Shown: in pieces, positions 5,312-40,500 of the stretch
Numbering within the stretch: the stretch's first letter is position 1
Layout: the number at the start of each line of letters is the position of its first letter
NCBI GenBank assembly: GCA_036365455.1
Contig: JAWQUS010000007.1
Span: 23,018,001-23,082,000 of the forward strand
Origin: Macrosoma leucophasiata
Taxonomy: Eukaryota; Arthropoda; Insecta; Lepidoptera; Hedylidae
Direction: 5' to 3'
DNA: 64,000 nucleotides
Program-made: the position numbers and the translations under genes
The notes under the pieces: model-generated
What the model was told of the DNA's origin: nothing
The model's input: the letters and a program-made list of their open reading frames with translations, nothing else
The model's database searches: none

Positions 5312-6017
5312 TTAACGGCAGATTTAAATTTACAGAACTAAGTAACAAGTGTGTAAAAAAATAATTTCGTAATTAAATTGGTAAAGAATACAAGGTGTTG
5401 CTTTTTTAAAGCATTTCTTAACAAAGAAATGCAAAGTGTAGCTGCCTATACGCAAATATTTATTTATTTTATATCTTTATTTTTCATTTAGAAATTTAAT
5501 ACGAATAAATGTTTTAGTTTGTAAGTAACCGATCGACCTAGTCTAACTTACTCAAGTTAATAAGTTATACAAATAGCAAAAACATTAAACAAGTACTATA
5601 TAAATACTTAATCGTAGGAATTGGATTCAGAAAAGCTATGCCTTTGCATCCGTGAATGGTTGAGAAATGAATTAGTATTAAGTACTATATAGAGAAATTC
5701 TAGAATAATTTGCCGGTCGGTGTATGGGGTTATCCATAAATTACATCACAGACTTGATTCCATTTTTGTCTACCCTCGTTTATCACATTTATAATATCTC
5801 TCTATAGTGACAATTTTGGGTTAATTTGTATTTAAGGATGAAATCGACTTTCATTTAAGTTTTAACAAATTAAAAATATGCAGATCTACACTACTTTTGC
5901 GGCTGTTAGATTAGTTGTTTTATCAATGAACGAACAAATACTGTAACCATACTGCAAACATAAATGTGAAAATATATAAATATGTATACCGACATTGTGT
6001 AGCGTCACCTACACTTT

Positions 6018-6056
6018 CATGTGACAGAATAGAATATATATATTCTATGTCACATG
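6018..6056. repeat. Perfect hairpin, first of a pair
   Basis: 9-bp outer stem CATGTGACA / TGTCACATG, a 3-nt bulge, and an 18-nt perfect palindrome TAGAATATATATATTCTA inside. Confidence 0.9.
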
Positions 6057-6060
6057 ACTA

Positions 6061-6093
6061 AGTGCAGTCGTGATTACACATCACGACTGCACT
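6061..6093. repeat. Perfect hairpin, second of a pair
   Basis: 14-bp stem AGTGCAGTCGTGAT / ATCACGACTGCACT with a 5-nt loop, only 4 bp after the previous hairpin. Confidence 0.9.
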
Positions 6094-7863
6094 ATATCTG
6101 ATATTCTAGGTAGAAATCAGGCAAAATGTCTTTAGATTTTTAAGTGTGACAAAGTGGATATAAAATTAACCTTAAACTTGTCACTTGTCGAGTCTTCCTT
6201 TTAGTATTTAAGCAATTCATTGAAATCTTCTTTCCCTTTTCCCTTCAGTTTTAATTATGTTACGTAATTTATGGATTCCACGCAACTTAAATAATAGTGA
6301 CCTTTAATGCGACGTAATAATAATGGAAAGAGAGCGATTGGGCAAGAATTTGAAAATGAAACTCCAAATGTTGTTATTCGATAATTTTACTGTTATAACA
6401 AGCACCAAACCACGTTTGGAATGTACTGTATTGCACCACACGTGAACAAAACCAATTCTATAATACACTTTTCATATTACAAAAGTACATAGCATTATGG
6501 GGACGAATAAAAACTGGAATTCCGTTAACTTAATTATATTATATTTGAAAATGAATAAATTTTGCTTACTAACACAATAAAGGCCACTATTACAATGTAA
6601 TTGAAACCACAATTTGTATATTTTATATCAAATGATTGCTATTTCGAATTATACATACTAAATTTATGAGCAAATTATAATAATTAATACATTATGATGT
6701 CCACGAAAATGTATACCCGCGTGATATATGATTAATTTTCATTTCGATAATTCTCAAACATACTGATAAAAAGTTGTCTTAAAAAATATTATGCAAGTAA
6801 ACATTTTGATGGAATATAGCAACATTTGCAAGTTGTGTAATACTTGTGATAAAGTACCGAGATTTTTTGCAAAATCATGTTCGCATTTTTTATTTTGTCT
6901 TTTATATTTAGTCAGTTTGATATTCACTAATAAACTATTCTACTATAGTGTTACATTTTGTTAAAAAAATCAAAAACAATTTATCGAATACCCGTTCGCT
7001 ATGCTCATGATGTGCATAACTGCAAATGTTGCCAGTCAATAGAAATAATAGTTTGTACATATAGTGACTTCATTGTGCTTAACAAGTTCCAATTGCACGG
7101 CCAGTCTTCATAGAAGATCACATTACAATACATTTTTAATCTCAGATGATTCCGAACCCTTCACGAAATAATTAAGTATAAACACCCGACGACTGACACG
7201 CTTCAGTCTAAATATCAAGACCGAAGGCCCTTGAGCGGTCCGTAGCAACATTGATCGACCGCCATCTTCAGTTAAAATATCTATGTCGTCGCGCGTAATG
7301 ATCACTTTCAGTTAAACGAAAAAAAAAATGAGGCTACCTAAATAAATACTTAATTAATATCATAGAACATATTACAAAAACATAGGAAAGTGACTCCTTT
7401 CATCTGTAGTGTAATGGAAATGTATTACAATTGTTCCTAACGGGGCGTCCCGTCGCTGCCACAGATTAAATAAATCGTCTATAATATTGTTACTTAAATA
7501 TCATCGATCCGTCTCGTAGCAAAAGACAGACTGACACCTCCGTGATTCTCGTGTAAAAAAGTCGATGTTAACGGCCTCGAGTGAAACATCGAGAGGTTTG
7601 GTAGAAGTTTAGATGTTGGAACATGTACGCGATGACAGAAGGCCGACGTTTATGGAAGAATCTCGAAGGCGCGTCTCGTGACGTGTAGTATCGTCAGTCG
7701 ACGGAAGGCGGGCCGGCGAGGGCGTGACGAAGTACAAGCCAGCGATGTATGACGACAGAGGACCCCGGTGCGCAAGCGTTGATCCTGCGTCGGGCGCCCG
7801 CCGAGCGACTTATGTACCTGCAATTCGATCATTTTTAGTTTGAAATAATAATCATTTCATGGT

Positions 7864-8403: not shown

Positions 8404-9445
8404 ACGCTTGGCGCGCGTGAGGCGGTCGAGCCGGGTGACGCCACGTACCGTGTAGCTGGGGGCGGCGTTAGCAGTCCGAGGAGTTGAGGTCGAGGGGCGG
8501 GGGCGCGGGCGCGGGGGAGGTCGGGGGCGGGCGCTTGGCGCGCGTGAGGCGGTCGAGCCGGGTGACGCCACGTACCGTGTAGCTGGGGGCGGCGTTAGCA
8601 GTCCGAGGAGTTGAGGTCGAGGGGCGGGGGCGCGGGCGCGGGGGAGGTCGGGGGCGGGCGCTTGGCGCGCGTGAGGCGGTCGAGCCGGGTGACGCCACGT
8701 ACCGTGTAGCTGGGGGCGGCGTTAGCAGTCCGAGGAGTTGAGGTCGAGGGGCGGGGGCGCGGGCGCGGGGGAGGTCGGGGGCGGGCGCTTGGCGCGCGTG
8801 AGGCGGTCGAGCCGGGTGACGCCACGTACCGTGTAGCTGGGGGCGGCGTTAGCAGTCCGAGGAGTTGAGGTCGAGGGGCGGGGGCGCGGGCGCGGGGGAG
8901 GTCGGGGGCGGGCGCTTGGCGCGCGTGAGGCGGTCGAGCCGGGTGACGTCACGTACCGTGTAGCTGGGGGCGGCGTTAGCAGTCCGAGGAGTTGAGGTCG
9001 AGGGGCGGGGGCGCGGGCGCGGGGGAGGTCGGGGGCGGGCGCTTGGCGCGCGTGAGGCGGTCGAGCCGGGTGACGTCACGTACCGTGTAGCTGGGGGCGG
9101 CGTTAGCAGTCCGAGGAGTTGAGGTCGAGGGGCGGGGGCGCGGGCGCGGGGGAGGTCGGGGGCGGGCGCTTGGCGCGCGTGAGGCGGTCGAGCCGGGTGA
9201 CGTCACGTACCGTGTAGCTGGGGGCGGCGTTAGCAGTCCGAGGAGTTGAGGTCGAGGGGCGGGGGCGCGGGCGCGGGGGAGGTCGGGGGCGGGCGCTTGG
9301 CGCGCGTGAGGCGGTCGAGCCGGGTGACGTCACGTACCGTGTAGCTGGGGGCGGCGTTAGCAGTCCGAGGAGTTGAGGTCGAGGGGCGGGGGCGCGGGCG
9401 CGGGGGAGGTCGGGGGCGGGCGCTTGGCGCGCGTGAGACGGTCGA
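8404..9445 (-). repeat. 127-bp tandem array made of the Dlic last-exon tail
   Basis: Eight copies of the TAA-plus-C-terminal-tail segment at exact 127-bp spacing (stop positions near 8468, 8595, 8722, 8849, 8976, 9103, 9230 and the real one at 9357), with a partial unit at the 8404 end. A single C/T site (gacgccacg versus gacgtcacg) splits the array: four copies of each type, C distal and T proximal. Very GC-rich; the plus strand of each unit has several G-runs. The seven extra copies lie downstream of the true stop, in the presumed 3' UTR. Confidence 0.95.
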
Positions 9446-9605
9446 GCTCGGCGGCGGCGTCGGAGCGCGCGGCGGCCGCGGCGGGCGGCTCGGCGCGCGC
9501 GCCCGGCGACACCGTCTTCTTGTACAGCAGCGAGTTGAAGAAGTTGGCCAGCACGCCCTCGTTGCCCGGCGTGCCGGGGCCCATGCCGATCTTCGCGCCG
9601 TCCAG
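9357..9605 (-). CDS. Dlic: Dlic last coding exon (adaptor-binding helix and C-terminus)
   Basis: Acceptor TCGACAG. Encodes [17 protein letters not shown], the helix [14 protein letters not shown], an Ala/Pro-rich linker, [14 protein letters not shown], a proline tract and LDLNSSDC before TAA at 9357-9359. The FF pair in the helix is the adaptor contact known for light intermediate chains. The last 29 codons and the stop are the part duplicated in the downstream 127-bp array. Confidence 0.92.
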   Translation of the reverse strand: MDGAKIGMGPGTPGNEGVLANFFNSLLYKKTVSPGARAEPPAAAAARSDAAAELDRLTRAKRPPPTSPAPAPPPLDLNSSDC

Positions 9606-12600
9606 CTGTCGAGATACGATTGCAGTTAAATTAAGAACGGTCAGTCTTTACATGCGCGATAGTAGAGATAACACAAAAAAACTGTTTGACTGACAATACA
9701 TTTTCGTTTTGCGTTGTTCTAAAGTGAACAATGAATAGCTTCGGCAGTCCCGCCAGAAGTTTTTTTGAAGTTATTTTTTTTAGCACCGTTATGAACAGTT
9801 GTGATTTATTGGAAGTCTGCAAGGTCTGCAGCGCGGCCGTGTAGTGTGTAGTGTGCAGTGTGTAGTGTGTATTGTGCGGGGTACCTGTGCGGTGGTGCGC
9901 TGCGCGGCCCGCAGCGGGGAGTCGGCGCGGGGCGCGAGGGCGCCGGTCTGCAGCGCGGCCAGCTGCCGCTGCAGGAAGGTGTGTAGTGTGCAGTGTGTAG
10001 TGTGTAGTGTGTAGTGTGCGGGGTACCTGTGCGGTGGTGCGCTGCGCGGCCCGCAGCGGGGAGTCGGCGCGGGGCGCGAGGGCGCCGGTCTGCAGCGCGG
10101 CCAGCTGCCGCTGCAGGAAGGTGTGTAGTGTGCAGTGTGTAGTGTGTAGTGTGCGGGGTACCTGTGCGGTGGTGCGCTGCGCGGCCCGCAGCGGGGAGTC
10201 GGCGCGGGGCGCGAGGGCGCCGGTCTGCAGCGCGGCCAGCTGCCGCTGCAGGAAGGTGTGTAGTGTGCAGTGTGTAGTGTGTAGTGTGTAGTGTGCGGGG
10301 TACCTGTGCGGTGGTGCGCTGCGCGGCCCGCAGCGGGGAGTCGGCGCGGGGCGCGAGGGCGCCGGTCTGCAGCGCGGCCAGCTGCCGCTGCAGGAAGGTG
10401 TGTAGTGTGTAGTGTGTAGTGTGTAGTGTGTAGTGTGTAGTGTGCGGGGTACCTGTGCGGTGGTGCGCTGCGCGGCCCGCAGCGGGGAGTCGGCGCGGGG
10501 CGCGAGGGCGCCGGTCTGCAGCGCGGCCAGCTGCCGCTGCAGGAAGGTGTGTAGTGTGTAGTGTGCAGTGTGTAGTGTGCAGTGTGTAGTGTGTAGTGTG
10601 TAGTGTGTAGTGTGCGGGGTACCTGTGCGGTGGTGCGCTGCGCGGCCCGCAGCGGGGAGTCGGCGCGGGGCGCGAGGGCGCCGGTCTGCAGCGCGGCCAG
10701 CTGCCGCTGCAGGTAGGTGTGTAGTGTGTAGTTTGTAGTGTGTAGTGTGCGGGGTACCTGTGCGGTGGTGCGCTGCGCGGCCCGCAGCGGGGAGTCGGCG
10801 CGGGGCGCGAGGGCGCCGGTCTGCAGCGCGGCCAGCTGCCGCTGCAGGTAGGTGTGTAGTGTGTAGTGTGCAGTGTGTAGTGTGTAGTGTGTAGTGTGCG
10901 GGGTACCTGTGCGGTGGTGCGCTGCGCGGCCCGCAGCGGGGAGTCGGCGCGGGGCGCGAGGGCGCCGGTCTGCAGCGCGGCCAGCTGCCGCTGCAGGAAG
11001 GTGTGTAGTGTGCAGTGTGTAGTGTGTAGTGTGTAGTGTGCGGGGTACCTGTGCGGTGGTGCGCTGCGCGGCCCGCAGCGGGGAGTCGGCGCGGGGCGCG
11101 AGGGCGCCGGTCTGCAGCGCGGCCAGCTGCCGCTGCAGGAAGGTGTGTAGTGTGCAGTGTGTAGTGTGTAGTGTGCGGGGTACCTGTGCGGTGGTGCGCT
11201 GCGCGGCCCGCAGCGGGGAGTCGGCGCGGGGCGCGAGGGCGCCGGTCTGCAGCGCGGCCAGCTGCCGCTGCAGGAAGGTGTGTAGTGTGCAGTGTGTAGT
11301 GTGTAGTGTGTAGTGTGCGGGGTACCTGTGCGGTGGTGCGCTGCGCGGCCCGCAGCGGGGAGTCGGCGCGGGGCGCGAGGGCGCCGGTCTGCAGCGCGGC
11401 CAGCTGCCGCTGCAGGAAGGTGTGTAGTGTGTAGTGTGTAGTGTGTAGTGTGTAGTGTGTAGTGTGCGGGGTACCTGTGCGGTGGTGCGCTGCGCGGCCC
11501 GCAGCGGGGAGTCGGCGCGGGGCGCGAGGGCGCCGGTCTGCAGCGCGGCCAGCTGCCGCTGCAGGAAGGTGTGTAGTGTGTAGTGTGCAGTGTGTAGTGT
11601 GCAGTGTGTAGTGTGTAGTGTGTAGTGTGTAGTGTGCGGGGTACCTGTGCGGTGGTGCGCTGCGCGGCCCGCAGCGGGGAGTCGGCGCGGGGCGCGAGGG
11701 CGCCGGTCTGCAGCGCGGCCAGCTGCCGCTGCAGGTAGGTGTGTAGTGTGTAGTTTGTAGTGTGTAGTGTGCGGGGTACCTGTGCGGTGGTGCGCTGCGC
11801 GGCCCGCAGCGGGGAGTCGGCGCGGGGCGCGAGGGCGCCGGTCTGCAGCGCGGCCAGCTGCCGCTGCAGGTAGGTGTGTAGTGTGTAGTGTGCAGTGTGT
11901 AGTGTGTAGTGTGTAGTGTGCGGGGTACCTGTGCGGTGGTGCGCTGCGCGGCCCGCAGCGGGGAGTCGGCGCGGGGCGCGAGGGCGCCGGTCTGCAGCGC
12001 GGCCAGCTGCCGCTGCAGGAAGGTGTGTAGTGTGTAGTGTGCAGTGTGTAGTGTGTAGTGTGTAGTGTGCGGGGTACCTGTGCGGTGGTGCGCTGCGCGG
12101 CCCGCAGCGGGGAGTCGGCGCGGGGCGCGAGGGCGCCGGTCTGCAGCGCGGCCAGCTGCCGCTGCAGGAAGGTGTGTAGTGTGTAGTGTGCAGTGTGTAG
12201 TGTGTAGTGTGCGGGGTACCTGTGCGGTGGTGCGCTGCGCGGCCCGCAGCGGGGAGTCGGCGCGGGGCGCGAGGGCGCCGGTCTGCAGCGCGGCCAGCTG
12301 CCGCTGCAGGAAGGTGTGTAGTGTGTAGTGTGCAGTGTGTAGTGTGTAGTGTGTAGTGTGCGGGGTACCTGTGCGGTGGTGCGCTGCGCGGCCCGCAGCG
12401 GGGAGTCGGCGCGGGGCGCGAGGGCGCCGGTCTGCAGCGCGGCCAGCTGCCGCTGCAGGAAGGTGTGTAGTGTGTAGTGTGCAGTGTGTAGTGTGTAGTG
12501 TGCGGGGTACCTGTGCGGTGGTGCGCTGCGCGGCCCGCAGCGGGGAGTCGGCGCGGGGCGCGAGGGCGCCGGTCTGCAGCGCGACCAGCTGCCGCTGCAG

Positions 12601-15600
12601 GAAGGTGTGTAGTGTGTAGTGTGCAGTGTGTAGTGTGTAGTGTGCGGGGTACCTGTGCGGTGGTTCGCTGCGCGGCCCGCAGCGGGGAGTCGGCGCGGGG
12701 CGCGAGGGCGCCGGTCTGCAGCGCGGCCAGCTGCCGCTGCAGGAAGGTGTGTAGTGTGTAGTGTGCAGTGTGTAGTGTGTAGTGTGCGGGGTACCTGTGC
12801 GGTGGTTCGCTGCGCGGCCCGCAGCGGGGAGTCGGCGCGGGGCGCGAGGGCGCCGGTCTGCAGCGCGGCCAGCTGCCGCTGCAGGAAGGTGTGTAGTGTG
12901 TAGTGTGCAGTGTGTAGTGTGTAGTGTGCGGGGTACCTGTGCGGTGGTTCGCTGCGCGGCCCGCAGCGGGGAGTCGGCGCGGGGCGCGAGGGCGCCGGTC
13001 TGCAGCGCGGCCAGCTGCCGCTGCAGGAAGGTGTGTAGTGTGTAGTGTGCAGTGTGTAGTGTGTAGTGTGCGGGGTACCTGTGCGGTGGTTCGCTGCGCG
13101 GCCCGCAGCGGGGAGTCGGCGCGGGGCGCGAGGGCGCCGGTCTGCAGCGCGGCCAGCTGCCGCTGCAGGAAGGTGTGTAGTGTGTAGTGTGCAGTGTGTA
13201 GTGTGTAGTGTGCGGAGTACCTGTGCGGTGGTTCGCTGCGCGGCCCGCAGCGGGGAGTCGGCGCGGGGCGCGAGGGCGCCGGTCTGCAGCGCGGCCAGCT
13301 GCCGCTGCAGGAAGGTGTGTAGTGTGTAGTGTGCAGTGTGTAGTGTGTAGTGTGCGGGGTACCTGTGCGGTGGTTCGCTGCGCGGCCCGCAGCGGGGAGT
13401 CGGCGCGGGGCGCGAGGGCGCCGGTCTGCAGCGCGGCCAGCTGCCGCTGCAGGAAGGTGTGTAGTGTGTAGTGTGCAGTGTGTAGTGTGTAGTGTGCGGG
13501 GTACCTGTGCGGTGGTTCGCTGCGCGGCCCGCAGCGGGGAGTCGGCGCGGGGCGCGAGGGCGCCGGTCTGCAGCGCGGCCAGCTGCCGCTGCAGGAAGGT
13601 GTGTAGTGTGTAGTGTGCAGTGTGTAGTGTGTAGTGTGCGGGGTACCTGTGCGGTGGTTCGCTGCGCGGCCCGCAGCGGGGAGTCGGCGCGGGGCGCGAG
13701 GGCGCCGGTCTGCAGCGCGGCCAGCTGCCGCTGCAGGAAGGTGTGTAGTGTGTAGTGTGCAGTGTGTAGTGTGTAGTGTGCGGGGTACCTGTGCGGTGGT
13801 TCGCTGCGCGGCCCGCAGCGGGGAGTCGGCGCGGGGCGCGAGGGCGCCGGTCTGCAGCGCGGCCAGCTGCCGCTGCAGGAAGGTGTGTAGTGTGTAGTGT
13901 GCAGTGTGTAGTGTGTAGTGTGCGGGGTACCTGTGCGGTGGTTCGCTGCGCGGCCCGCAGCGGGGAGTCGGCGCGGGGCGCGAGGGCGCCGGTCTGCAGC
14001 GCGGCCAGCTGCCGCTGCAGGAAGGCCTGCTCGTCCTCCGCGCCCACCTCCGCTTCGCGGTGCCCACCGCTCTGTAGGCGAAAACACGTATTAAATCATT
14101 AACAACACTAACGGCGCACCCCGGACACTCAACACAAAAAATCTAACAGTACACGCGCACACAGAAATGGGGCACGTAGTGTTATAACCAAAACAGACAA
14201 TCGTGAAATAAGTCGTCGCACTGACTACGTGACCAAATTACCAAAAAATAGACAGCTAGCTTACCCGCTCGCAACCTCACTGTTGAAATTTGTTGACGCG
14301 GGAAAATCGGGCGGGACGTCGAAGTGTCCATTCTATACGTAGTATTACACGTATTATACACTAAACTAAATCGTCACTTGGATCTAAATGGCACATAACT
14401 CTTTTGTCTCTCTTTAAGAGATAGCTTATATTTGAGGATTGCTTTAAATTAAGTGATTGAGTATTCGGCCATAAGGTTCGGTTGAACCGCAGTAATTGTT
14501 AGAAAGAAAGAATCTTAACTTATACAACGTGTAACAGGATTAAATGTACAACCTGAAACTACTTTGCTCAGAATCGATGACTGAATCGATTTCAGGCATT
14601 TTTGATAGGGTAATATTTTGTCCCAAAATTAAGAGGGCAGTCTGCGAGCGTGGGAATTTATTTTTGAACCCACACATAGAAGTTTTCTACTCACACAAAT
14701 ACATCACGCAGTATAGTATACGTACGCTAGGAAGTGACAAGAACTGACATAATTACCGTATCCATCGCCCGCTTACCTCGGTAGAATGTTTAAGAACGTT
14801 ACAAAAACACGCAATATATTGGGCCATAGTTTATCGCAACCTTTTTAAGGTGCGGTCTTAGTGTAAGCGTTATGTGTGTATTAATTTAATAATTCTGTGA
14901 AATTTAGGAAATATTATGCATATATATTTTTTCTTAATGCTATTGAACCTGATTAGAATAAAACTACACAAAATTATTACATATATTATTTTCATCTATT
15001 ATTACTATAAAATATTGGTCAATTGCAATCATTCTGAAGCAAAATATTTATGTAACATTTGCGTACCGCTAATGTAGTTGTTTTGTTTTTACCACTCTAT
15101 TCTTTCTAAATTTATTACTTCAGTAATGACCCGTTAGTCTCTTATAAAGCTGCAAATTCATCTTTTAAAACACGTGACATGATTCTATCTTCATCTCCCG
15201 AGATAAAGTCTTTCATTTATTTTTACAATTTTAGGGTAACTAACAGCAATTTACAGAGATAAATAAACCTGTAGATACATGTAACTGAGAGTTACAGATA
15301 TGAACCACATATAAGATTAGAAGTAGGTATTCGAATCGGTTATTCATAATTTTGCAATAGTAGATTAAAGAATAAATCAATATACAAAGGAGTCGTTCCA
15401 AAAATGTATGGAGCTTGGGAATGCACCTTGTACAATATTGAGAGAAGAAGCATAAAATCATTTTCCGTTATTCAAATCGTTTATTATACCTTCAATCAAT
15501 TTTCGTAAGTATATTTCAAAAACAAGAATGTCATAGTAGCAATATAATCATATTTCGTTGTCATATAAAAATTACATAAAACAAATATTGCCGACAAAAA

Positions 15601-18600: not shown

Positions 18601-21600
18601 GTTTTTATATTATTTCGCATTAACACATGCTTGTGAAATATATTTTATTTTAAAGAAAAATGGAAAGAAAAATTTGACTTCAGGCGAGACTCGAACTCGC
18701 GGCCTACTGGGAATCTAGTCCAGCCGCTCTTCCAATTGAGCTACTGAACTAGTACTAGTTGTACTAGTTTATTTTACGACATAGTAAAAATTATCAGGGT
18801 TGACAGATTCCCTCACCCTCTAACAGATCACCGAGGTTAACTCAAAGCAGCTCAGTCAATTACGGTTAGAAGTTAAAGTAAAGACGACATTACAATTTTC
18901 AAATGGTCCATCTCATTTTTTCATTAAAGGTGGACTCTATCCAATTTGTTAAAGTTACAACTCACAGTGATAGTTTTATTTAACGTGTGTCGTGGGGTAC
19001 TGTTAAGCAGTGCCAGAGAATATGTAATAATACTACGTATAGAATGGACACTTCGACGTCCCGCCCGATTTTCCCGCATCACCCAACCTCCTCCCTTCTT
19101 ATGGGCGACAGTTGGTATTTCACAGATGCGCGTGTAAATACACGTCACTGATTGATGTCTGTGTAATAGAGACCAAATTAAGCGTTTGGATGGAATTTTG
19201 GCGGAGTGTCCGCGGTGTGCCATTGCGCTAAACTGAATGGCGCTGTTATGTAAAATGTGCGACACAAATGTTTATTCTGGTCACTCAAGAACACAGTAAG
19301 TACAAGAAATAACTTACTTTCCGCGTGGCAGGTTGAACAATGACATCTCTGTAGTAGTCATCGGGCTTACACGACTGCATATTCTCGTACAATATGCTAA
19401 TTTTCTTCATACTGTCCCAGCCAGCTGGACTGTAAAACATAAAAAATTACAATTGTAAAACATTATTCAAAAGTCTTAAGAATCGGCGTGCATGTATGAA
19501 GAGAATGATAAAGGTAGACGTGGCACGAGAGGTTTGTCAGGACCGGGATATCTGGCGCTCTACACGCTCTGCCTATCCCGTTAGGGACCTGGCGTGAAGA
19601 TACATATACATATATAATTTAAAAACGTTATCTTTCAATAAACAGGAGTAGTAAACTGAAGCCACCTACAGTTGAACGACAACCGGCCATACTACCATAT
19701 ATTAAGGGTGTTACAGACAAAATAGCAAACATATTAAGAAAATCTTTAAAAACGGTTTTTACAAGAAAATACACAATTCCCTACGAAATTCCGGTATTTA
19801 TAAACTCGATTGTGATTGTGGACTCTCTTATATAGGCCAAACAAAGAGAGCGGTTTGAACCAGAATTAAATAACATATTGCTGATGTCAAACACTGTAGA
19901 GCAGGGATGTCGGCAGTCTGTGATCACATAGCGGACAAACCAAATATTCGGTTTGACAAAACTCGAATACTCGCTACTCGAACACAGAGCAATTCCAAGA
20001 ATGGTTCGCGAGGCTATTGAGATTATACTACCTGCGTGAGGTACGTGTTAGAAAGTGACATGGACACCCGGCACATCAATATTGGCAACTGTCCCTCTTG
20101 CCAGCATCTCGAGATGCCTATGGAACTAAGTTACAATATAAAAGGAAACTCACATCAAAACCGCATCCTTCTCGACGATAAGGGCCGGCGTCCGGAACGG
20201 CAGGCCGTATATCCGGTGCGTGAGGTACTTGTACAGCAGATCGCAGTTCTTGTCCTCCTTGGCGCTGGTGTAGAAGAGCGCGGCGCCGTACTGCAGGCAG
20301 AACCGCCGGATCCACTGCTGCATGAAGTCGAAGTGCTCGTCGCGGTAGTCGTGCTCTTTCTCTAGTGTGCTCATGTAGTCAGTCTGGAATGTTTAGAATT
20401 GTGATGATAAGAGTACTAATGCTTCATGTACCCCGTTAATTAAACAACACCATCACAAAACAAAGCGCGCATGGCCCTGCGGATGGTGTAGAAAGTGTGG
20501 ATCGTAAGTGATCTACTCGGTTAAGCGATACGGGCGCGGTCGGGTGTGTGATGGGTGAACGCTAGTGGCAAATTAAAATGCGCGTTTCCGTGCTTCGGAG
20601 GGCACGTTAAGCCGTCGGTCCCGGTTGCTATCTATAGTCAGTAGTCGTCAAACCTTGTCGGAGGCCTTATGGGCGGTTTGAAAACATCCGACATCGGGTT
20701 GGCCACTAACCCGTATCGCCACCAACCCGCATTGGAGCAGCGTGGTGAAGTAAGCTCCAGAACTCCCCCCGAAAAGGGTAGAGACTCGTGCCCAGTAGTG
20801 GGATGTATAATGGGTTGCAATTATTATTATTTTTATCACAAAACGACTTCGTTAGTTTGGGTTAACCCTGTCAAAAGGTGTACCTTTATAATAGTTAAGC
20901 AGAACAAAGGTTCATCATTATTTTAGCTGATGGACATCCACTGCTGGACCAAAGCCTCCCCGAAAGGGATATGCCATAATCGCCACGATTGGCATGCGGA
21001 TTGGGCATCGCATTGAAGGTAGTCTTATCGCAGGACGCTGCTGCCCATCTTGCATTACTGCACTTACTACCTCCCCATTATAATGGATTGACAATGTTCT
21101 GACAGCACTAGCCGAAGAATTTTCTTCCATCAGAAGAGAATTCTTCCGCTAGTGGGCGGTGGGGAAGTCACGTCCCGACGCAGAGAGAACGAAGGTTAAC
21201 CTATAGTAATGGTTAACATTAGAACGGGTTAGCCCTTTTCAAAAGAACGGGTTTTCCGGGCTCTGCTGAGGAATGGTAAATTGCCACCGGTGGCAATCGC
21301 CGCAGGGGCAACTGGGAATATATCAAATCTATCTTCTCTCGCAAAATCACCCGGTGATGGAATTTGGGTTGTCTATACAAATAAATAAAGTTGGAGTGTC
21401 TGTTTGTAATATAAAAATAACCGCTTTTTACTAAATGCATATGTACACGGTACATATACCAAAACAACATTTTTTTATTTTTTTTTGTCTGTCTGTCTGT
21501 TTGTTCCCGCTAATCTCGGGTACTTTCACTGGCAGATAGCTTATGAAATAAGGCGTAACTTAGGCTACTTTTATACAAGCAGCGCCCACGACTTCGTCCG

Positions 21601-24600
21601 GGTAGATACTGAACATTCATAAATTCTTACGCTGACGAAGTCGCGGACACAGCTAGTGTTTAAATAAAAATAAAATTAAAATAAAAAAATACCTTTGTAG
21701 CGACAACCACTATGTCCAAGCCTAGTTTTGTGGTAAGTACACCCTCTGGTAGCGGACTGTCATCTTCATCACACTCCAGTTCGTCGGATAAATTCCTCGA
21801 CGACCGCTTCATTGGCGACGACGCGGTAGGCTCGAGTTCGTCGCCCGGTTCCGTATACCTTTGCCATTTCTGTACTTGCTGTTTTTTACTTTGTAGCCTA
21901 TGTTCTGAAAATAATAGATAAAATCTATACATCTATACAAATAAATAAAATTGTAGTGTTTGTTTGTAATATAAAAATAACAGCTTTTTACTAAATGCAT
22001 ATGTATGTATACAATACACGGCACATATACCAAAACATTTTTTTTTACAATTTTTGTCTATCTGTAGAGCGTTATCTCTTTCGCACCTTACCTATTTGAC
22101 GTTTGTTGATCAAGTTTTGACCAATACCGGACTACGGATGCTTACGTAGGCAGTGTGCAGCAGAGATAACGCTCTATGAAGCCGAAACTAGCCGATTGTC
22201 TCTTTCATAGGCTCGATGTGCATTATTTCTTGATGAGCGCTGTAAACGAATATTCGTAACCGTAACCGAAATAAATGTTTCGGATAATATCGGATAGAGG
22301 CGTCACACTAGCCGCGCGCGACCATTTGCATTATTTGTTAACTATTGTTTTCGTCTTATGTATCTTCACGCCAGGTCCCTAACGGGGTAGGCAGAGAGTG
22401 TAGAGCGCCAGACATCCCGGTTCTGACAAACCTCTCGTGCTTCGTCTACCTTCATCATTCTCTTCATACATGCACGCCGATTCCTAAGACTTTTGACCCC
22501 ACCATCAGACAGAACTCGACCTATTTGGTCATGGTAGGTCAGCCTTGGTCTTCCTGGGCCTCTGCAACCATCCACATTCGCATTGTATATCTGTTTAGTC
22601 ATTCGCTCATTCGACATTCTTTCTATATGCCCGAACCATCGGAGCATGCCTTTTTTCATTTTTACACCGATACTATCATTCACACAAAGTCTCTTTCTTA
22701 CATCTTCATTACGAACGCGATCGGTGAGTGATACACCGCAGATCTTGCGCAATTCGTCTTATAATACTCGTTACTAACTAATTTATGAGTAAATTTTTAT
22801 TTTTCTTTTAAAATTCCTTAAAAATCTAATATCTGTAACCGAAATTATCCGAAACTAACGGATAATCCGAAATAATGTCTATCCGTATCTGGTATAATAA
22901 TCATTCCTTTATCCGTATCCAATCCGTATCCGAAATTTCATATCCCTAACATCCCCTGCTGTATGGATACTTTCTATTATTTTTATTAATTATTATTCGT
23001 AATTTTAAAACTAAATACAAGTACATTGTTCACACCTACAAAAATGTCACGAAGTGGCAATTGTGTCGAATTTAATTCGACACAGTAAGATAATTCCATG
23101 CATATTATCATAGTATAGTACTTTCACGAATAAATTATATTTGTTAGTCGCACTGCGCCTATCGCAGCGTCCAAATAAACATAGATTTTTATAGTATTAT
23201 ATTATTAGGGTTCTATACAAGGAATAAAATACAGTACAATGACATTATGCAATGTATCGAGCTAGGCAGAAATTATTTAAACCGATATTGGCTTTCTAAT
23301 ATTTTTTCCTTACAGAAACCAAACTGCATTATAATACTGGTTAAGGTCTGGTTTCTGGGAACGGCTGTGTTTACTAATGCGTATCAGTCTACTCAAAAGG
23401 AAATTATTTTAAAAGAATTGTAGGTTATAAGTATTTTCCTTTAACATTGTTTCCCTAAAAAAAACCTAACCAATTTTGCAGGCAGGAGTTATTGTCGTGT
23501 CCCCCGCCAAGACAAGTGAATCTTCTATTCCCGCCAATAAACAGGACATACCTGTATTTGTGTACTTTTTTCATGGAATCTCATCGTATTTTTTTAATAA
23601 TTTCGGTGCGAATAATGCTCACTACTCGAAATTTTCAGGATAAGATATGATTAGTACTGTACGGAACCCTTCACTTTGGTACGACGCGGACTTAGCTGAT
23701 CATTAGTTTTTAATTTCATCCGGTAGTTATCGTAATTAGAACGTCTGTTTTTTCAGGCCATTATCTCTTAAACATTGTTGATAGATTAACGTTGTATTTA
23801 ATAAATGTATAAATAACTGGCAACTACTGGAGAGAAAATCATTGAATTTGTGGCATCGCACGTATCAGGCGTGACGTTAACAAATTTCTAATGTCTAGTA
23901 ACAAAATTAAATATAAAATATAGTAAATTCGTCTCTTCATTCGCGGTATAGGCTTCGAGGTACGTGCCCCTTTGCCTCGGCATCTTATCTCCCATAAAAA
24001 TGAGAGCGGAGTCTTGGTAGCGCACAGATGGGCGCCGCGACTCCCAGAGGCGCCCACGGTGTAGGCGCCTCCCAAGTGTAATAAATTCGTGACATACTGG
24101 TAAGTTACCTCGACGCTCCAGTCAAGATTGAAGATCAGGTGGGTCCACAAAAGTTCGGATTGGTGGAGAGAAGGAGGAAGGAGGGATGTGGATTAGAACA
24201 CAAGACCGCTGAGCACCTGCTATTTAGCGTCAAGTAGATTGAATAAAGTGTTTGTGGTAAATTGTAGGCTACCAAACTGTGTAAAACTCTACCACCCCTA
24301 AGAAATCTCTGAATCAAAATAGCTAGCTAACAACACATAAGCAGCGGCAATCGTGAAATATATTTTTTAATACTACTTCTTAATGGATGATGAATGTTAG
24401 ATAAATTTATCTATCAATGACGACGCCGACGTATAAGCGAATAAGAAACCTGGGTTGGGCTAATAAATTATTTAAAGCAACATTATTTTATATGTATACT
24501 AACACAAACTTTATCAACTGGTTTTGGATTTTTATACATTGTTTTTGTGTTCAAAGTGCGCCAACGACAAGAAATATATAAATCAGTTATAGTTTTATAG

Positions 24601-27600: not shown

Positions 27601-30600
27601 TACTATGGTAATGAGGTGGTGCCTACGGCCGCGAGCTCCGTCACTGGAGCTCTACCACTAGTAAAAATCAGTATTAAATTCTCAGTATAAAAAAGCTCTG
27701 ACGGTCTCGAATAAAGGTGGAAGTGGCCATACTCTCGAGATGCTCCTAGCGTCATCGTTCTGTGGTTACTTTCAAGATTTCTTAATGCTGGAGAGGAACG
27801 GATCCAATCGAACTTCAGCAACAAAAACTTCAGGTTCAGAGAATCCAGCCGAATCCAAAAATAAAATAAAGGAAATGTTATGACTATGAAAATAAAATGA
27901 ACACGCACAACACTAGTGATGTCAGCCAGTTAATGATATGCATAAAAGTTTATTTTTAAGCATTTCATCAAAATAATACGCCTGTAATGTTTTAAACATG
28001 GTTTTGCATGTGGGAAATAAATTCTCTGGGTAGAACGTATTTAAATTAGACGATTAAAGTAGCATTTAACATACATTAACTCAGTTACTGTAGACAAAAA
28101 ACACGGTTCTTCAGAGTTCGAAAGGCTTTAAAAATAAAGCATTTGTGGTATGTACTATCAGGTCACTGGCAGCTTGATCACACGGGCACCTTATGCAATA
28201 GTAATAAAAGCTGTACTTGATTGAAATTATATAAGCGGAGAGTTCCCTGACTGTACTTACAGTGTCGGGCCCGGAGTTACTAATTTTATAATAATTGTGA
28301 TACGGGACATGTGATTGTAGAAACTGATAAAAGGTGATTTCGCTTTTTTGTTCGAGTTAGTCAAAAGATTGACAGAAAAATGATAACATGAAGTATCAGC
28401 GTAATACAAAAGTAAAATATAATACTAGCATTTCGATAAAAATTCACCCGTATTGTGCTGTAATCAATTCTGACCTAATTATTTGCAAACGAAGCTTCCC
28501 GTGGGGATATCAGCATTTGTAGAAAAATAAATTAACAATACGAATTTTGTAAACATTTCAAACACCTGACAACATTTATTAGAATTTCCATTCAGCAGCA
28601 CTGTGACGAGTTGACGGCTTCACGGTACACATTACACATGTTAATAGAGTCAAACAAGCATCCCTTGAGAATAAAGGAACTGTCTTCTAAAAGATTTATT
28701 ATTTTATCCTTAGATGTCGAAATCTTTCAAAAAGCATGCGCCTTTATCGACAAAGTTTGTGAAATTGAGGACACTTTGAATCTTGAGAATAACTGCGATG
28801 CGACAAAACAGTAGATTAAAGACTCCTTTCACACAAAATCCATTAGTATGACTGCGGGCAGGACAGGCTCACTTAAAGCCCACTAGGATAACCCAAAGGC
28901 TAAATATGTAAATAACATGAGCATGCACGCCAGTAGTTTAGTTTTAGAGATGAAATTCAACAGGTGTGAAATACAACTGATATGTGGACGCTAAGCACGG
29001 CGTGGTCATCGCCATCATCAGGATCATCAGCGTGTGTACCCCCGCGATACCTCGTTGACGGCAATCTATATCAGGTTTGATATTCTTTTAGAAGACCAAC
29101 ATGTCATTCTCAAATGCGTCGATAGGACAGTCGGATTCTATTTTTGTTTCTAAAATTAAGTCTTGGAATAACAGGTAGATTAGATTCAACTTACCAGGTG
29201 TGAGATCCAATTTGTCTATGTGGTCGCCGAGCACGGAGGCCCAGCTCTGCAGCTGCTCCAGGATGCCCCACGGCGTGGTCATCGCCACCGTCAGGATGAC
29301 CAACGTATGGGGGTATGTCTCCTCGTTGAGGGCGAACTTTAGCAGGTTTGTATGCCCTGGATCGCCGTCCAACACCCATACGCTTAGCCGTGTGTGGTCT
29401 GTGGGATGGTTGTGTTGTTAGTGACGAACGGACACGGCCCTAAGGTTTCGTATCCACTAGGAGCTGTCTCGTATCGACTTAACCAGACACATGCTGCACT
29501 ATGAGCTAAATAGCTATAGCCCAGTCCACCTCAAGTAGAGGATGCTCAAATGGATACAATAGCTTTGTATACATATTATAAGGCTCACAACTTTGCGTCT
29601 CGACACTCTCACGGCTGAGATAAATATTAAAATTTCATCATCATCATTCTAATAGTCTTCATCTCTCCCTCCGCACGTGAAGCATAACAGAGGAAGGGGA
29701 TCGTTCGGGGGTCGAGGTTCAACCCTCCTTCCCCGGGACTATATGGTCCCGAAGCGTCGAGGGCGTGGTCGAATTGGGTAAATTGTGACATCATGATGAC
29801 ATAATCATCATCATCACTTCAGCCGAAAAACGTCTACTGCTGGACCAAACCAGTACCTGGACTGCAGGTACCAATATCAAATTACTCCCTGACACTACAG
29901 ATGAGATGTTGGGGGCCTAAGATCCTGGAATAGACTTCTATCAAACGCGAGACATTTAATGCCAAGGTGTGAGTTTCGTAGTAATAGACGATTTTTGTAC
30001 TGTGCATGTGTGTCGCACGCATTTCCGCAAAAAATGATAGTTTGTTTTGCATCGGTAATACACGCTATGGCTACTCCCCTCCGGTCCAACGCGACCGGTG
30101 GGCCGCGTTGCTCTATGGCTTTTTTTAAATAGGCGTCTCGTCTCGAGACGGCGCTAGTCTCCTTCACCAGGCAATTGGCGACACAAAGGACTCTCTCAAT
30201 ATATTTACACAACTACCTAACGAAGACCCCTGCGTGTACGATCCCCGGCTTGGCGGGACACTTAAGACATATGCGATTAGGGGCCGTGCAACTTGCGCTT
30301 TAGACATCGGTTGGCAAAGTGCAATAAACTGTGTATGTATGATTCATTGGGTGATTTTCAGAAAAAAAAAACAATCCATAGCCGGCAACTTTCGGCATTT
30401 TTGATTTATTGAGGTTAATGATGGCAGAAGTAGGCAGATTATTTTGGAAAATCACCCATATGCATTTTCTTGTTCACATAAATGTTACCATAGGCAAACT
30501 AGTCTAGGTTTAAAAATAAAAACAACACGACTGATGCTAACAGTGGATACATTATAGTAAGTGGGTTAAAAATGATAGTAATCACCGACCCAGACACGAG

Positions 30601-33600
30601 CGCAGATAAAGAAAGCACTATTAGTGCTCCGAATTTACTTTCGGGTCTTACAAAAAGACATTCTGGCGTACAACAAGACGATTGGTCGTCCGTCGGTGCA
30701 TCGCCTGTTGCACTAGTCTAGAGGTCAGGTAGGGGTCTAAGGGTTAATCCTTAATCCCTACTTATATATGACAATTTGTCTGCAAATTCTTCATTTCTGG
30801 ACTAAGCCATATTTTATTTTGAATTTGAATTGAATTTAGCATACAGTTCACATTAATAGTAAAATGATTACTGTAGCCCAAACATCTGCAAATATTTCTA
30901 TGTGCCATTGGATAATGCGTTGGTGCCTAAGCCCGCGCTAACCACCACTCGCCTTTAACAGAAAAATATTTACACAAAAGAATGAAGAGAAATGTATGTA
31001 TTTTCACAACAATTCTCTTATGGGGTAGGCAGAGAGCATAATTCTTCTACATTCACAATTTTCGTCAAAAATTCAGACTTCCAGTGTAGGAGCTTGATGG
31101 CGTAGACACCACCACTTAATTTATCTGCCGTTAAATAGTGGTGTTCAGCACTATCGTGTTCCGATTAGAAGGTAATGCATGGCCCCATAATAACTATCAC
31201 AGAGACGTAATAAACTAAGGTCTCAGAGATGGCACGCATCTGTATTTAGACCTCTGGTCTTTGTGTCAGTGTCTAAAGGCTGCAGTCATCACTTAACACC
31301 AATGTGAACAGAATGCTTCTTTGCTACCTTCATTACATTAAAAAAACTTACCAATGGATGAATAATGATAAACAGTTATCTAAGTAATTATTTAAGTAAA
31401 TATTATTAAAATTAAAACAAAATTATTAAGAACATAAAAGGTATAGATTTGGATAATTATGGTCGAAGTCACAATATCCTATAATAGTATTGCTGAGCTA
31501 CAAGGTTTGTAGCTCAGCAATACTATCCACCTGCTACTTGCCACCTGTTACATGGGCCAAAACGTAACCGGCGAATCGTGGGTGTTTGCATGTATGCTTG
31601 AATGCATGCATTTACCTCTGTCTACCCCTTCGGGGATTACAGGCGTGAAGTTACGTACAAGGTTTGTTGCTGATTGTCTAACAACAACAGTTTTGTTGTA
31701 TAGTAGTTGTTGTTGTAAGATGTCTATCTTAAAAGAAAATGACATCTGAAAAAAGGCCTGCTCCGATGGTTTGGGCATAAAGAATGTCGAATGAGCGAAT
31801 GACTAAACAGATGTGGATGGTTGCAGAGGCCCAGGAAGATGAAGACTAACCTACCATGACTAAATAGGTGGAGTTCTGTCTGATGGTGTGGTCAAAGCTC
31901 TTATGAATCGGTGTGCATGTATGAAGAGAATGATGAAAGTATGAGGGACGAGAGGTATGTCAGGATGGGGATATCTGGTACTCTACACTCTCTGCCTACC
32001 GCGTTAGGGACCTAGTGTGAAAATACATACATACATCTTAAAAGAGTATAAAAACAAAATATTTTTTACTGTTGGTAGAGTTCCAGTGTACTCTAGAGAG
32101 TAGGCACCACCAAATTACCTTATAATACCTTATGTGCCTAAATAGTAGTGTTCAGCGGTATCACACCGTGGACACTGCCAAAATTCCATACGAACACTTA
32201 ATTTGGTGTCTATTACACAGATATCAATCAGTGACGTGTATTAACACGTGGACCTGTGTGTGTAGCACATAGAGAATACTAAACGTCGCCCATAAAAGGG
32301 GAGGAGGTTGGAAGAAGCGGGGTAATTGGGCAGGATGTCGAAGTGTCCATTCTATACATAGTATTATTACATATTCTCTGGCATTATTGAGTTCTGATTA
32401 GGAAGTAATGTAACGGCCTTGTTATATTCCAGCACAGAGGCAAAATGATGTAGTGGTAACATATTCTTAATCACTCCAGACACGAGAAAAATATGACAAT
32501 TGAAATTCAATTGTGTCTCGCCGCTGGTGGCCGTACGATCCTTGATGGATTAATCTAAATTTCTAGTTTAATGTAGATGTTTATAGGCTATACTATAGTA
32601 TCACTTACCATTGATGTGAACTGTACACTTGTTTGCCACATCATGACAAAAAATGTTCAATGTAAATATGTAATTACGATTTACAAGAACACCAGAAAAA
32701 GATTCTATTTTGCTTTTAAAAATATCCAAATTTAGTGAAAATGGTTCTATTACAGGTTGCAAGGTTTTTTCTTATTAGCGTCTTATAAGAGAAAATTATG
32801 AGATAAAAGCAAATTCTGATGGTAAAAAGACTTCCAAGATCATCTGCTATCTGCACTCACTTTACTCCTATATTCCTCTGAAGGATTTGGCAGCAATACA
32901 AACACCCATTCATGCATGTACCCAAATAATTTCCCATCACATATTTTGGTCTTTAATGCAAGTCCCTAGCCAAATGTTTATCTTCCAGATAAACAAACAC
33001 TGTCACTAACGTGAGTTTAATTATTGTTAATCAGAACGAAAACAAGGTACGATATGGTTAAAGACAAAAAAAAACAGAACAAAAGCATTGATAGCAATAA
33101 GTCAGAACAAAAGTTGTTGTGACTTATTGGTATCAATCAATATTATAAATCATCTGACAATGCTTATGTTTAATAGTAATACAATATAGCCACTCACCAT
33201 CCCGGTATTCATCTCTAACATCTATATATGCATATTCGAGAGCCGACCCCTTCTTCGGGTCTTCAACGCCTTGTAACTTAGCTATGAGTGTAGTTTTACC
33301 AGTCTCATTATCACCCAGTACTAATACATTCTTGTTTGAAGGTAGTTTTGTGTTCCCTTGATTCTGAACTTCCTCTAGGATAGCAGACCTGAAAACACAT
33401 TTCCATTACCATTTGGCTGTTGCAGAATAAAGAAAAAACAAATGACATCTCGATGTACTGTCTTGGGAGAAAGGATCATGTGAAGATTTCTACACCTATT
33501 TAGCAAACAAAAGGTAACGTCGCTGCTAGGTCACATATTTCTCAGGTGCAGGCTTGACATCACGTAGGTGTGACACATTGGATACCCTATATGGATGCTG

Positions 33601-37500: not shown

Positions 37501-40500
37501 ATCACGTACGACAAGAACGTGCGAAAAAGGTCGTGGTCAAAGGCCGGTCAGGCTTCACAGACTGTGGCGAAACCCGGGTTAACTCGCAATAAGGTGATGT
37601 TGTGTGTGTGGTGGGATTGGAAGGGCATAATTCATTATGAGCTATTACCACCAGGCAGGACTATCGATTCTGAACTCTACTGCGAACAACTGATGATATT
37701 AAAACAAGAAGTTGAGAGAAAGCGGCCGGAATTGATCAACAGAAGGGGTGTGGTGTTTCATCATGATAACGCTAGACCTCACACATCTATAGCCACTCAG
37801 CAAAAATTAAGAGAGTTTGGCTGGGAGGTGTTAATGCATCCGCCGTATAGTCCTGACCTTGCACCTTCAGATTTCCACCTGTTTCGGTCTCTTCAGAATT
37901 CTTTATGTAATGTTAGGTTAACATCACGAGAGGACTGCCAAATCCACTTGTCGCGGTATTTTGATGAGAAGTCCCAAAATTTTTATAGCAATGGGATCAT
38001 GTCCCTACCTACAAGATGGCAAAAAGTTATCGAACAAAATGGTACATACATACTTTAGTTAAATTTAAATAAACTATATTAAAAAATGTTTTGAATTATC
38101 TTAAAAAATGCGAAGAAACTTTTTCCCCAACCTAATATAACAACACATACCGACTTCTATTATCGTATAAGAGGTAGCAACGTTTTCGAGAGAGAACTTC
38201 AGGTAGGCTAGTTTTTAAATATGCCATCTCTCTAACTCTCCCGGACCTCATACGGGTGGTCTGGCACCCGGTAGTGGTTGCGTTCGCCAGTGCGCATCGT
38301 ATCTGTACACGTAAAAAATCAAAATTTTAAATCATTTTAGGAAGCTATTTATTGTTATTATTATTTTTATTGACCTTTTTGTAACATGAATCTTTTATAG
38401 CCAGACATCTTCATTGTTGTTTAAACAGTGCCAACACCCTTCTGTTGATCAATTCCGGCCGCTTTCTCTCAACTTCTTGCTTTAATCTCATCAGTTTTTC
38501 GCAGTAGAGTTCAGAATCGATAGTCCTGCCTGGTGGTAATAGCTCATAATTAATTATGCCCTTCCAGGGCATAATTCATTATGAGCTACATCCCACCACA
38601 CACACAACATCACCTTATTGTGAGTTAACCCGGGTTTCGCCACAGTCTGTGAAGCCTGACCGGCCTTTGACCACGACCTTTTTCGCACGTTCTTGTCGTA
38701 CGTGATCCACTTTTCATCACCAGAGATATCAGCTTCAAAAATGATTCGGTTTCATTACGTCGTAATAAAGAATCACAAATGAGTACACGGTTCATTAGGT
38801 TTCCTTCAGTGAGCTCGTGAGGTACCCAAATATCGAGCTTTTTTTGTACCCAGCTTTTTTCAAATGCGCCAAAACTGTTTTGTGATCAATTCTCAGTTCT
38901 TCAGCTACGTCGTAACTACTGAAATGTCGATCTTGCTCCACTTTTTCAAAAATGGCATCCATTTTATCCGTAATAGGGCGACCAGAGCGAGGTGCATCTT
39001 TGACATCAAAATTTCCGGATTGAAAACGCTTAAACCAAATTTGTGCTACTCTCACAGACACTGCACTAGGTCCATAAACATCGCAAATTTTTTTCGCGGC
39101 TTGCGTTGTATTTTTACCTTTTTTGTAGCAAAATTTTAAAATGTATCGAATTTCTTCATTAGATTCACTCATCTTGACAGTACGAAAAACAAATGAAAAT
39201 CACACATTTGCCTAATTTGAATTTGGAATTATGTTCTTTAAAATTTTAACTTTCAATGATACCAAAACCAGCCAGATAGAAATACTACAGCCATAGAGAT
39301 TTTATTACAAGTTCATACATACTATAATGCGAAAAGACTTTTTTCCCAACCTATTATAATAGTTTCATTTTCAAATGGTAATGATACATTTTCGTAACTA
39401 ATTTTAAATACAACCTAGATTACACAATTCTTAATGCAAAATCATGTTTCAATCCGAGGTTTGCGAATTGCTAAAAGACATCTAGAAACGTGAGGCAATA
39501 TGTGTTGGGCAAATAATTGTTGTCGATTTCAAATAGTTTTATAAGATGTGTTTTAGTTTAATTATATAAGTCTCTATTATCTATCACGGATCAGGAGGTC
39601 AATATTGGCGGAGACACAATTGAAATCATATTTTTCTCGTGACGTGACGGGTTAACACGACTAATTATCCGATCATACAACAGGTTTGGTCGGGGCCTAA
39701 AAACGCTAAACGACTTGCTCAAGCAAGCAAAAGCGGGAAGGCCAGTTAATGAAGAGGATATACCACCTGCAGTCAGTCTCGGCAAGACCGACGGTCCTCA
39801 ACCACCAGTCAGAGCGGCCCCGCCGCCACCGAGTGCCCCTGAACCTCCTGCAGAGGAAGAGCCTCCCACGGCTGAAGAACCTCCAAGTCTACCCGAACCG
39901 ACGTCACCGCCGCCTCCTCTTCCAAGTGAGGCCCAGGATACTGGAAGTGCGGGACTTGATCCAGCTAGGCAGCAAGGATTGCTGGTGATTATGAGTGAGT
40001 GGTTTATTTTTTTCTTGTGATGGAGCTCATAGCCCACTTCAATGTAAATGCATTGTCACTCTTGAGCCTTAAATTGTTATGCCTCTGTGCTGCAAAATTA
40101 CATACGAGAAACACTAAGGCGTGAAGATATAAATGATTTCTTAATTTTCTAAGGTAAAATGTTTCACTGTATAGGTAGTATGGGTACACATACATTTGAA
40201 CATTTGTGTCATTAGCTCTTAGCATTTGCAAGAGATATAATATTGATACTGTAGCTGAAATTCTTGTACTTGATATCGCATGTAACAGAAATAAATAAGT
40301 ACGTTACGAACCCACGTTATTTAAATGACGTAACTAAAAAAGGCAATCTTTGGGGAAGGTTTTTGTCCAGCAAATGGACGTCTTTCGGTTAAATGATGAT
40401 GATGAATATAAAAAGGATCAGAAGTTGTAATAATACTCTTTTCTGCTGCAATCATATTGCTGCAAGTTAAAGATATAGGTAACGCACGCAAGTCTTAAAT

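Follow-up and report, generated by a model that had tools for sequence, protein, structure and literature searches.

A tandem array repeating the exon 7 splice donor within an intron of Dlic in Macrosoma leucophasiata

The window analysed here is a stretch of 64,000 nucleotides from the hedylid Macrosoma leucophasiata (NCBI GenBank assembly GCA_036365455.1, contig JAWQUS010000007.1, positions 23,018,001 to 23,082,000 of the forward strand), and its minus strand carries the dynein light intermediate chain gene (Dlic). Intron 7 of this gene is occupied by a minisatellite, array 1, which crosses the exon-intron boundary and repeats the splice donor, the first of its 29 CAGGTAC motifs being the donor of exon 7 itself. 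Judged from its sequence, array 1 is quite probably a young, passive intronic minisatellite whose decoy donors can be ignored by splicing.

The Dlic gene and its two exon-end arrays

The gene model comprises seven exons with in-frame joins (33198-33388, 29195-29398, 21693-21904, 20154-20383 and 19318-19429, followed by exons 7 and 8; Table 1); exon 1 was looked for in the gene modelling of the window and was not found. The predicted product of the seven exons has 445 residues, its top protein match among the matches listed is a Melitaea cinxia protein (91% identity), and its residues 1-422 match a solved dynein light intermediate chain 2 (30dr_j). The in-frame exon model and the structure match confirm the gene identity and the joining of 13931 to 9605 put forward in an earlier note on this DNA. 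The 337-residue chain of 6f1y matches until query residue 341, which lies inside the repeated segment of exon 7, a segment coding for the stretch where the folded domain ends and the linker begins. Exon 8, whose acceptor reads CGACAG/CTGGAC (the slash marks the splice junction), encodes the presumed adaptor-binding helix and runs to the stop codon. Exons 7 and 8 have guanine plus cytosine (G+C) contents of 79% and 76%, against 41-59% in the other five, and it is in these two highest exons that the arrays start. GC-rich sequence is prone to minisatellite birth, and this high content would explain in a simple way why both arrays lie where they do.

Tandem Repeats Finder (TRF) reports array 1 as a 142-bp repeat of 29.0 copies with a score of 6843, and parsing recovers 29 exon-end motifs, copy 0 being the real end of exon 7 and the remaining 28 being extra, which agrees with the number of donor-bearing extra copies counted in the earlier note. 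Each unit consists of the 95 bp that close exon 7 (31 codons and 2 nt), the donor and a run of CACACTA-type heptamers and, because the number of heptamers varies, the units measure not only 142 bp, the length formerly given for all of them, but also 135, 149 or 170 bp. The donor reads CAG/GTAC in 29/29 copies, each of which therefore carries AGGT; the intact GTACCC attributed to every unit is found in 28, the donor of copy 5 (exon base 13221) being GTACTC. The heptamer run stops at about 9839, where a 16-bp remnant of the unit follows.

The exon-derived 95 bp fall into four haplotypes over the 29 copies: the commonest type (n=14), C83A (10 copies, including real exon 7; synonymous, CGC/CGA), T4A (4 copies) and C22T (1 copy, Ala to Val). 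Ten distinct unit sequences occur in copies 0-27, the 28 units that have both their ends; copy 28, which lacks a clear end, is excluded from this count. Together with the homogeneous block of copies 0-9 and the perfectly repeated seven-unit segments (Table 1), these relationships make the history of array 1 look like one of repeated rounds of amplification, the latest adjoining exon 7.

A second array, absent from the earlier note, starts in exon 8. Its first copy holds the codons from ELDRLTR on and the stop codon, and its copies form two blocks according to position 118 (A or G). A donor-like GTACGT site lies 19 nt past the stop codon (U1 energy -5.9 to -6.2, with a mismatch), and the plus strand shows eight G-quadruplex patterns, one per full unit. 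Each array thus has its working terminal signal, a donor or a stop codon, in the first copy and all extra copies behind it.

Two further observations touch these arrays. The segment 7500-7817, noticed by eye behind an AG (TTGCAG/GTACATAAG), has 54% G+C and is a possible 3' untranslated exon, to which the GTACGT sites of array 2 could be spliced. On the plus strand, at 52300-52520, exon-like sequence (GWFTRDTLLGAAAVKLAPLENQVTVHEA), which we take to resemble CC2D1/lgd proteins, adjoins short CACACTACACG-type repeats that weakly match the array 1 heptamers.

Splicing signals of the units and comparison with relatives

The donor of exon 7 has a U1 pairing energy of -7.1 kcal/mol, identical for the GTACCC and GTACTC forms, and the mean unpaired probability of the donor is 0.66-0.67 in 25/29 copies and 0.45-0.59 in the other four (0.27-0.56 at five other Dlic donors). 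With equal energy and similar accessibility in those 25 copies, position rather than strength must decide between them; shielding of the decoys by RNA structure was considered and rejected, since accessibility does not single out the first copy. Use of later donors would give predicted exon 7 lengths of 283, 425, 567 nt and onward. The sense strand of array 1 contains no TAA, TAG or TGA and is open in all three frames, and splicing from 7 of the 28 extra donors would preserve the frame of exon 8, so that leakage would not always be destructive. Selection for these open reading frames was also rejected, 613/4000 shuffles of the unit being equally stop-free, so that the absence of stops is not unusual for this composition.

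The units had further been proposed to serve as cassette exons of 28 codons, and the in-frame 84-nt geometry on which this proposal was built is right. Their candidate acceptor is CTGCAG, with no competing AG for at least 53 nt in the extra copies and with 12-13/20 pyrimidines in its tract, against 9-14 in real acceptors. Each copy has the AG, the tract and the donor; what is missing, in 28/28 extra copies, is a branch-site motif. A YTNAY occurs within 60 nt upstream of 7/7 real Dlic acceptors, as against neither YTNAY nor TNA upstream of CTGCAG in any of the 28 extra copies, and no YTNAY precedes the same AG within real exon 7. Around array 1 the sense strand is free of TNA over some 4.3 kb (Table 1), the second-longest such gap in the window being 133 nt, and 2052/2967 AGs of the window outside the arrays have a YTNAY within 58 nt. 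Introns between neighbouring units would measure 58 nt (16/28), 65 nt (6), 51 nt (4) or 86 nt (2). T4A lies upstream of the proposed acceptor, and would therefore be intronic if the units were cassette exons. The exon parts, described in the earlier note as almost unmutated, do carry few changes (the Ala-to-Val and synonymous ones), but selection on them is unsupported: we counted by hand 2 independent substitution events in the 84-nt parts and 4 in the rest of the unit (Fisher p = 0.24), omitting A/G and copy-number changes of the heptamers because their events are indistinguishable.

Among 18 aligned relatives, the end of exon 7 is seen in 16, once in each; the other two are P0016, which is truncated, and P0109, which is not alignable at this point. 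A protein query containing two extra units gave 29 matches, the first 17 covering 41-55% of the query region, which is what one unit alone would give, and certain distant matches up to 100% at low identity. When the best match to the unit was masked and the second-best scored, no second unit was found in 130/130 relatives' proteins, all 29 matches of the previous query included (second-best score at most 33, against 121 in a control with one unit added); this test drew on a protein database with 90% identity clustering, in which isoforms of the species itself may be missing. The translated array used as a protein query gave three matches at E <= 0.01, each to one exon end and with no array. 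By title and abstract start, neither this array nor any lepidopteran minisatellite spanning an exon was found to be reported in the open-licence papers listed.

In P0121, a relative's protein from a contig, the exon 7 end is followed by Q and by V, the latter from a GTN codon, and then by residues foreign to the repeat, which suggests that intron 7 may pre-date the array. The Thr and Leu of the unit (ALQTGALAP) are present in all 29 copies and in none of the 13 relatives counted, one of which is gapped at the position of the Leu; the array would therefore be younger than these changes, or have been homogenised with the exon. These are the 2/31 residues of the unit that are unique to this sequence, against 7/403 elsewhere (Fisher p = 0.13), a count made on 13/18 aligned relatives with columns of more than two gaps dropped. 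The relatives omitted were P0013 (divergent C-terminus), P0015 (which we take to be a caddisfly), P0016 (truncated), P0094 (partial) and P0109 (not alignable there). The figures are at most suggestive of an array-driven change of real exon 7, which may have proceeded by gene conversion.

Competing readings of the intron 7 array

We favour a passive origin and fate for array 1. A tandem duplication would have taken the last 95 bp of exon 7, the donor and the heptamer run just inside the intron, and unequal exchange or slippage would have amplified this unit to 29 copies. With the donor lying inside the duplicated segment, the real exon end, as first copy, would keep its job and the extra copies would fall, presumably neutrally, in the intron. 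Exon 7 is short, has a real acceptor and is flanked by long introns (5246 and 4325 nt), a setting for exon definition in which the first donor is favoured and would most likely win, so that the decoys are probably harmless; the extra units would not readily become exons because the only acceptor candidate they contain has no branch site. When minigenes with two identical strong donors were spliced by exon definition in HeLa cells (flanking introns of 365 nt), the upstream donor was used exclusively (PMC9225289). The retention of the first signal would hold for array 2 as well, the signal kept there being the stop codon. The field of about 28 decoy donors that splicing would ignore, which the earlier note had offered as the fallback to cassette exons, is the best-supported reading of the sequence.

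A number of points weigh against it. The donor shared by exon 7 and the array is the third strongest of the six donors of the gene by U1 pairing, so the decoys are not feeble. The branch-site test is in effect one sample, a single unit sequence repeated; 439 of 4000 dinucleotide shuffles of the unit also lack TNA and 841 lack YTNAY, 296/614 GC-matched AGs in the window have no YTNAY within 58 nt (318/614 have one), and not every real acceptor has its YTNAY at a plausible distance, the sole one of exon 2 lying 40 nt upstream with another AG intervening. These controls weaken the acceptor point a little; still, the units are poorly fitted as acceptors and sound as donors. The 130 proteins are only a part of those available, the best 120 of 1241 proteins matched having been listed. 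Intron definition is common in insects, and the upstream-donor rule rests on human data. For near-equal human donor pairs, the upstream donor is preferred under exon definition and the downstream one under intron definition; in the minigenes, once both donors were weakened, the larger exons were mostly skipped and the smaller ones kept, using the upstream donor (PMC9225289). Finally, two of the downstream repeats of human IFI6 do serve as donors (PMC4526556), and some leakage is therefore possible in Dlic.

Leakage of this kind is at the heart of the first alternative, in which array 1 is a multi-donor minisatellite like that of IFI6, a minority of transcripts using a later donor and exon 7 being lengthened through the heptamers. 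The equal U1 energies of the two donor forms, the stop-free sense strand with its seven extra in-frame donors and the behaviour of IFI6 itself all argue for it. Nevertheless, we regard it as rather unlikely: the first donor is favoured under exon definition (PMC9225289), the seven in-frame donors would insert at least 142 residues, the smallest insert being a mixture of all three frames, the open frames are unremarkable among the shuffles, and the three proteins matched by the translated array each have a single exon end and no array. A composite account would join amplification channelled to exon 3' ends, a 29-way donor competition, an array of multiple stops and the use of some later donors for long-linker chains. 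Such channelling would come about because duplication over a donor or a stop leaves the first signal working and the later copies harmless; taken as a whole, the composite is improbable.

An assembly artefact, with a true copy number of one or few or a mis-expanded array, has little chance of being correct: the perfect 1022-bp repeat and the near-identical units could arise from mis-assembly, but the variation is ordered (blocks, lengths of 135-170 bp, private variants) and the same gene holds a second array. Cassette exons yielding variable-length linkers, despite their in-frame geometry and an AG with a short pyrimidine tract, are the least credible reading and were dropped for the missing branch-site motifs, the short unit-to-unit introns (51-86 nt), the lack of an added unit in the 130 relatives' proteins and exon parts that bear no sign of constraint.

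Other repeats, related systems and meaning

Beyond the two arrays, a diverged copy of the interior of exon 3 lies about 115 bp behind the exon 3 donor (Table 1); it includes neither exon end, and so is not a third case of a first signal being kept. Broken reading frames on the minus strand at 38414-39199 belong to a transposase, presumably mariner-like, and two adjacent inverted repeats were seen by eye at 5990-6110 (GTGCAGTCGTGAT with ATCACGACTGCAC, and a second beside it).

Table 1. Positions in the window of the Dlic features and repeats.
Feature	Coordinates	Strand	Basis and remarks
Array 2, 127-bp unit, 8 full copies + 27 bp	8405..9447	minus	Copy 1 = exon 8 end including stop codon
Dlic exon 8, to stop codon TAA 9357-9359	9357..9605	minus	In-frame exon model
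Intron 7, 4325 nt, nearly all array 1	9606..13930	minus	
TNA-free stretch of about 4.3 kb on sense strand, no branch-site core	9808..14093	minus	Trinucleotide scan
Array 1, 29 head-to-tail copies, mostly 142 bp, 28 in intron 7	9839..14025	minus	TRF and parsing
Perfectly repeated 1022-bp segment, 2 x seven units (12023-11002, 11001-9980)	9980..12023	minus	0 differences
Homogeneous exon-proximal block, copies 0-9	12606..14025	minus	All with the exon's CGA and one heptamer pattern; sole change, donor GTACTC in copy 5
Dlic exon 7, 141 nt	13931..14071	minus	In-frame joins with neighbours; Pfam DLIC match E = 0.00027; last 95 bp = copy 0 of array 1
Diverged (73%) 84-bp copy of exon 3 interior, in intron 3	28996..29079	minus	Score 36 vs <=17 in 300 shuffles

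The nearest parallel known is the multi-donor minisatellite of human IFI6 (6-16, G1P3), reportedly described by Turri et al. in 1995. Both minisatellites repeat a splice donor downstream of the first; the IFI6 repeat unit is short, at 12 bp, as against about 142 bp in Dlic, and Dlic has in addition a second array taking in a stop codon. Two downstream repeats are used in IFI6, giving three mRNA species (PMC4526556). The Rogers model, in which an intron is gained when a segment carrying AGGT is duplicated in tandem, likewise involves tandem copies of such a segment, with ATP2A1 and fission yeast SPOG_01682 as cases (PMC4974935). Measured against this model, Dlic differs in that its copies lie behind an existing donor inside an intron, and no new intron is needed or shown. 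Tandem duplication of cassette exons also repeats exon sequence inside an intron; in Dlic, however, the copies are confined to the 3' part of exon 7 and include neither its acceptor nor its branch region. The second array, over the end of exon 8 and its stop codon, is new here.

The locus is a natural test of how one donor is chosen among 29 near-equal ones, each behind 95 bp of nearly the same exon. It suggests a simple rule by which exon-spanning minisatellites survive when the terminal signal is retained in their first copy. Should later donors be in use, Dlic of M. leucophasiata would be the insect equivalent of IFI6, built on a far larger unit.

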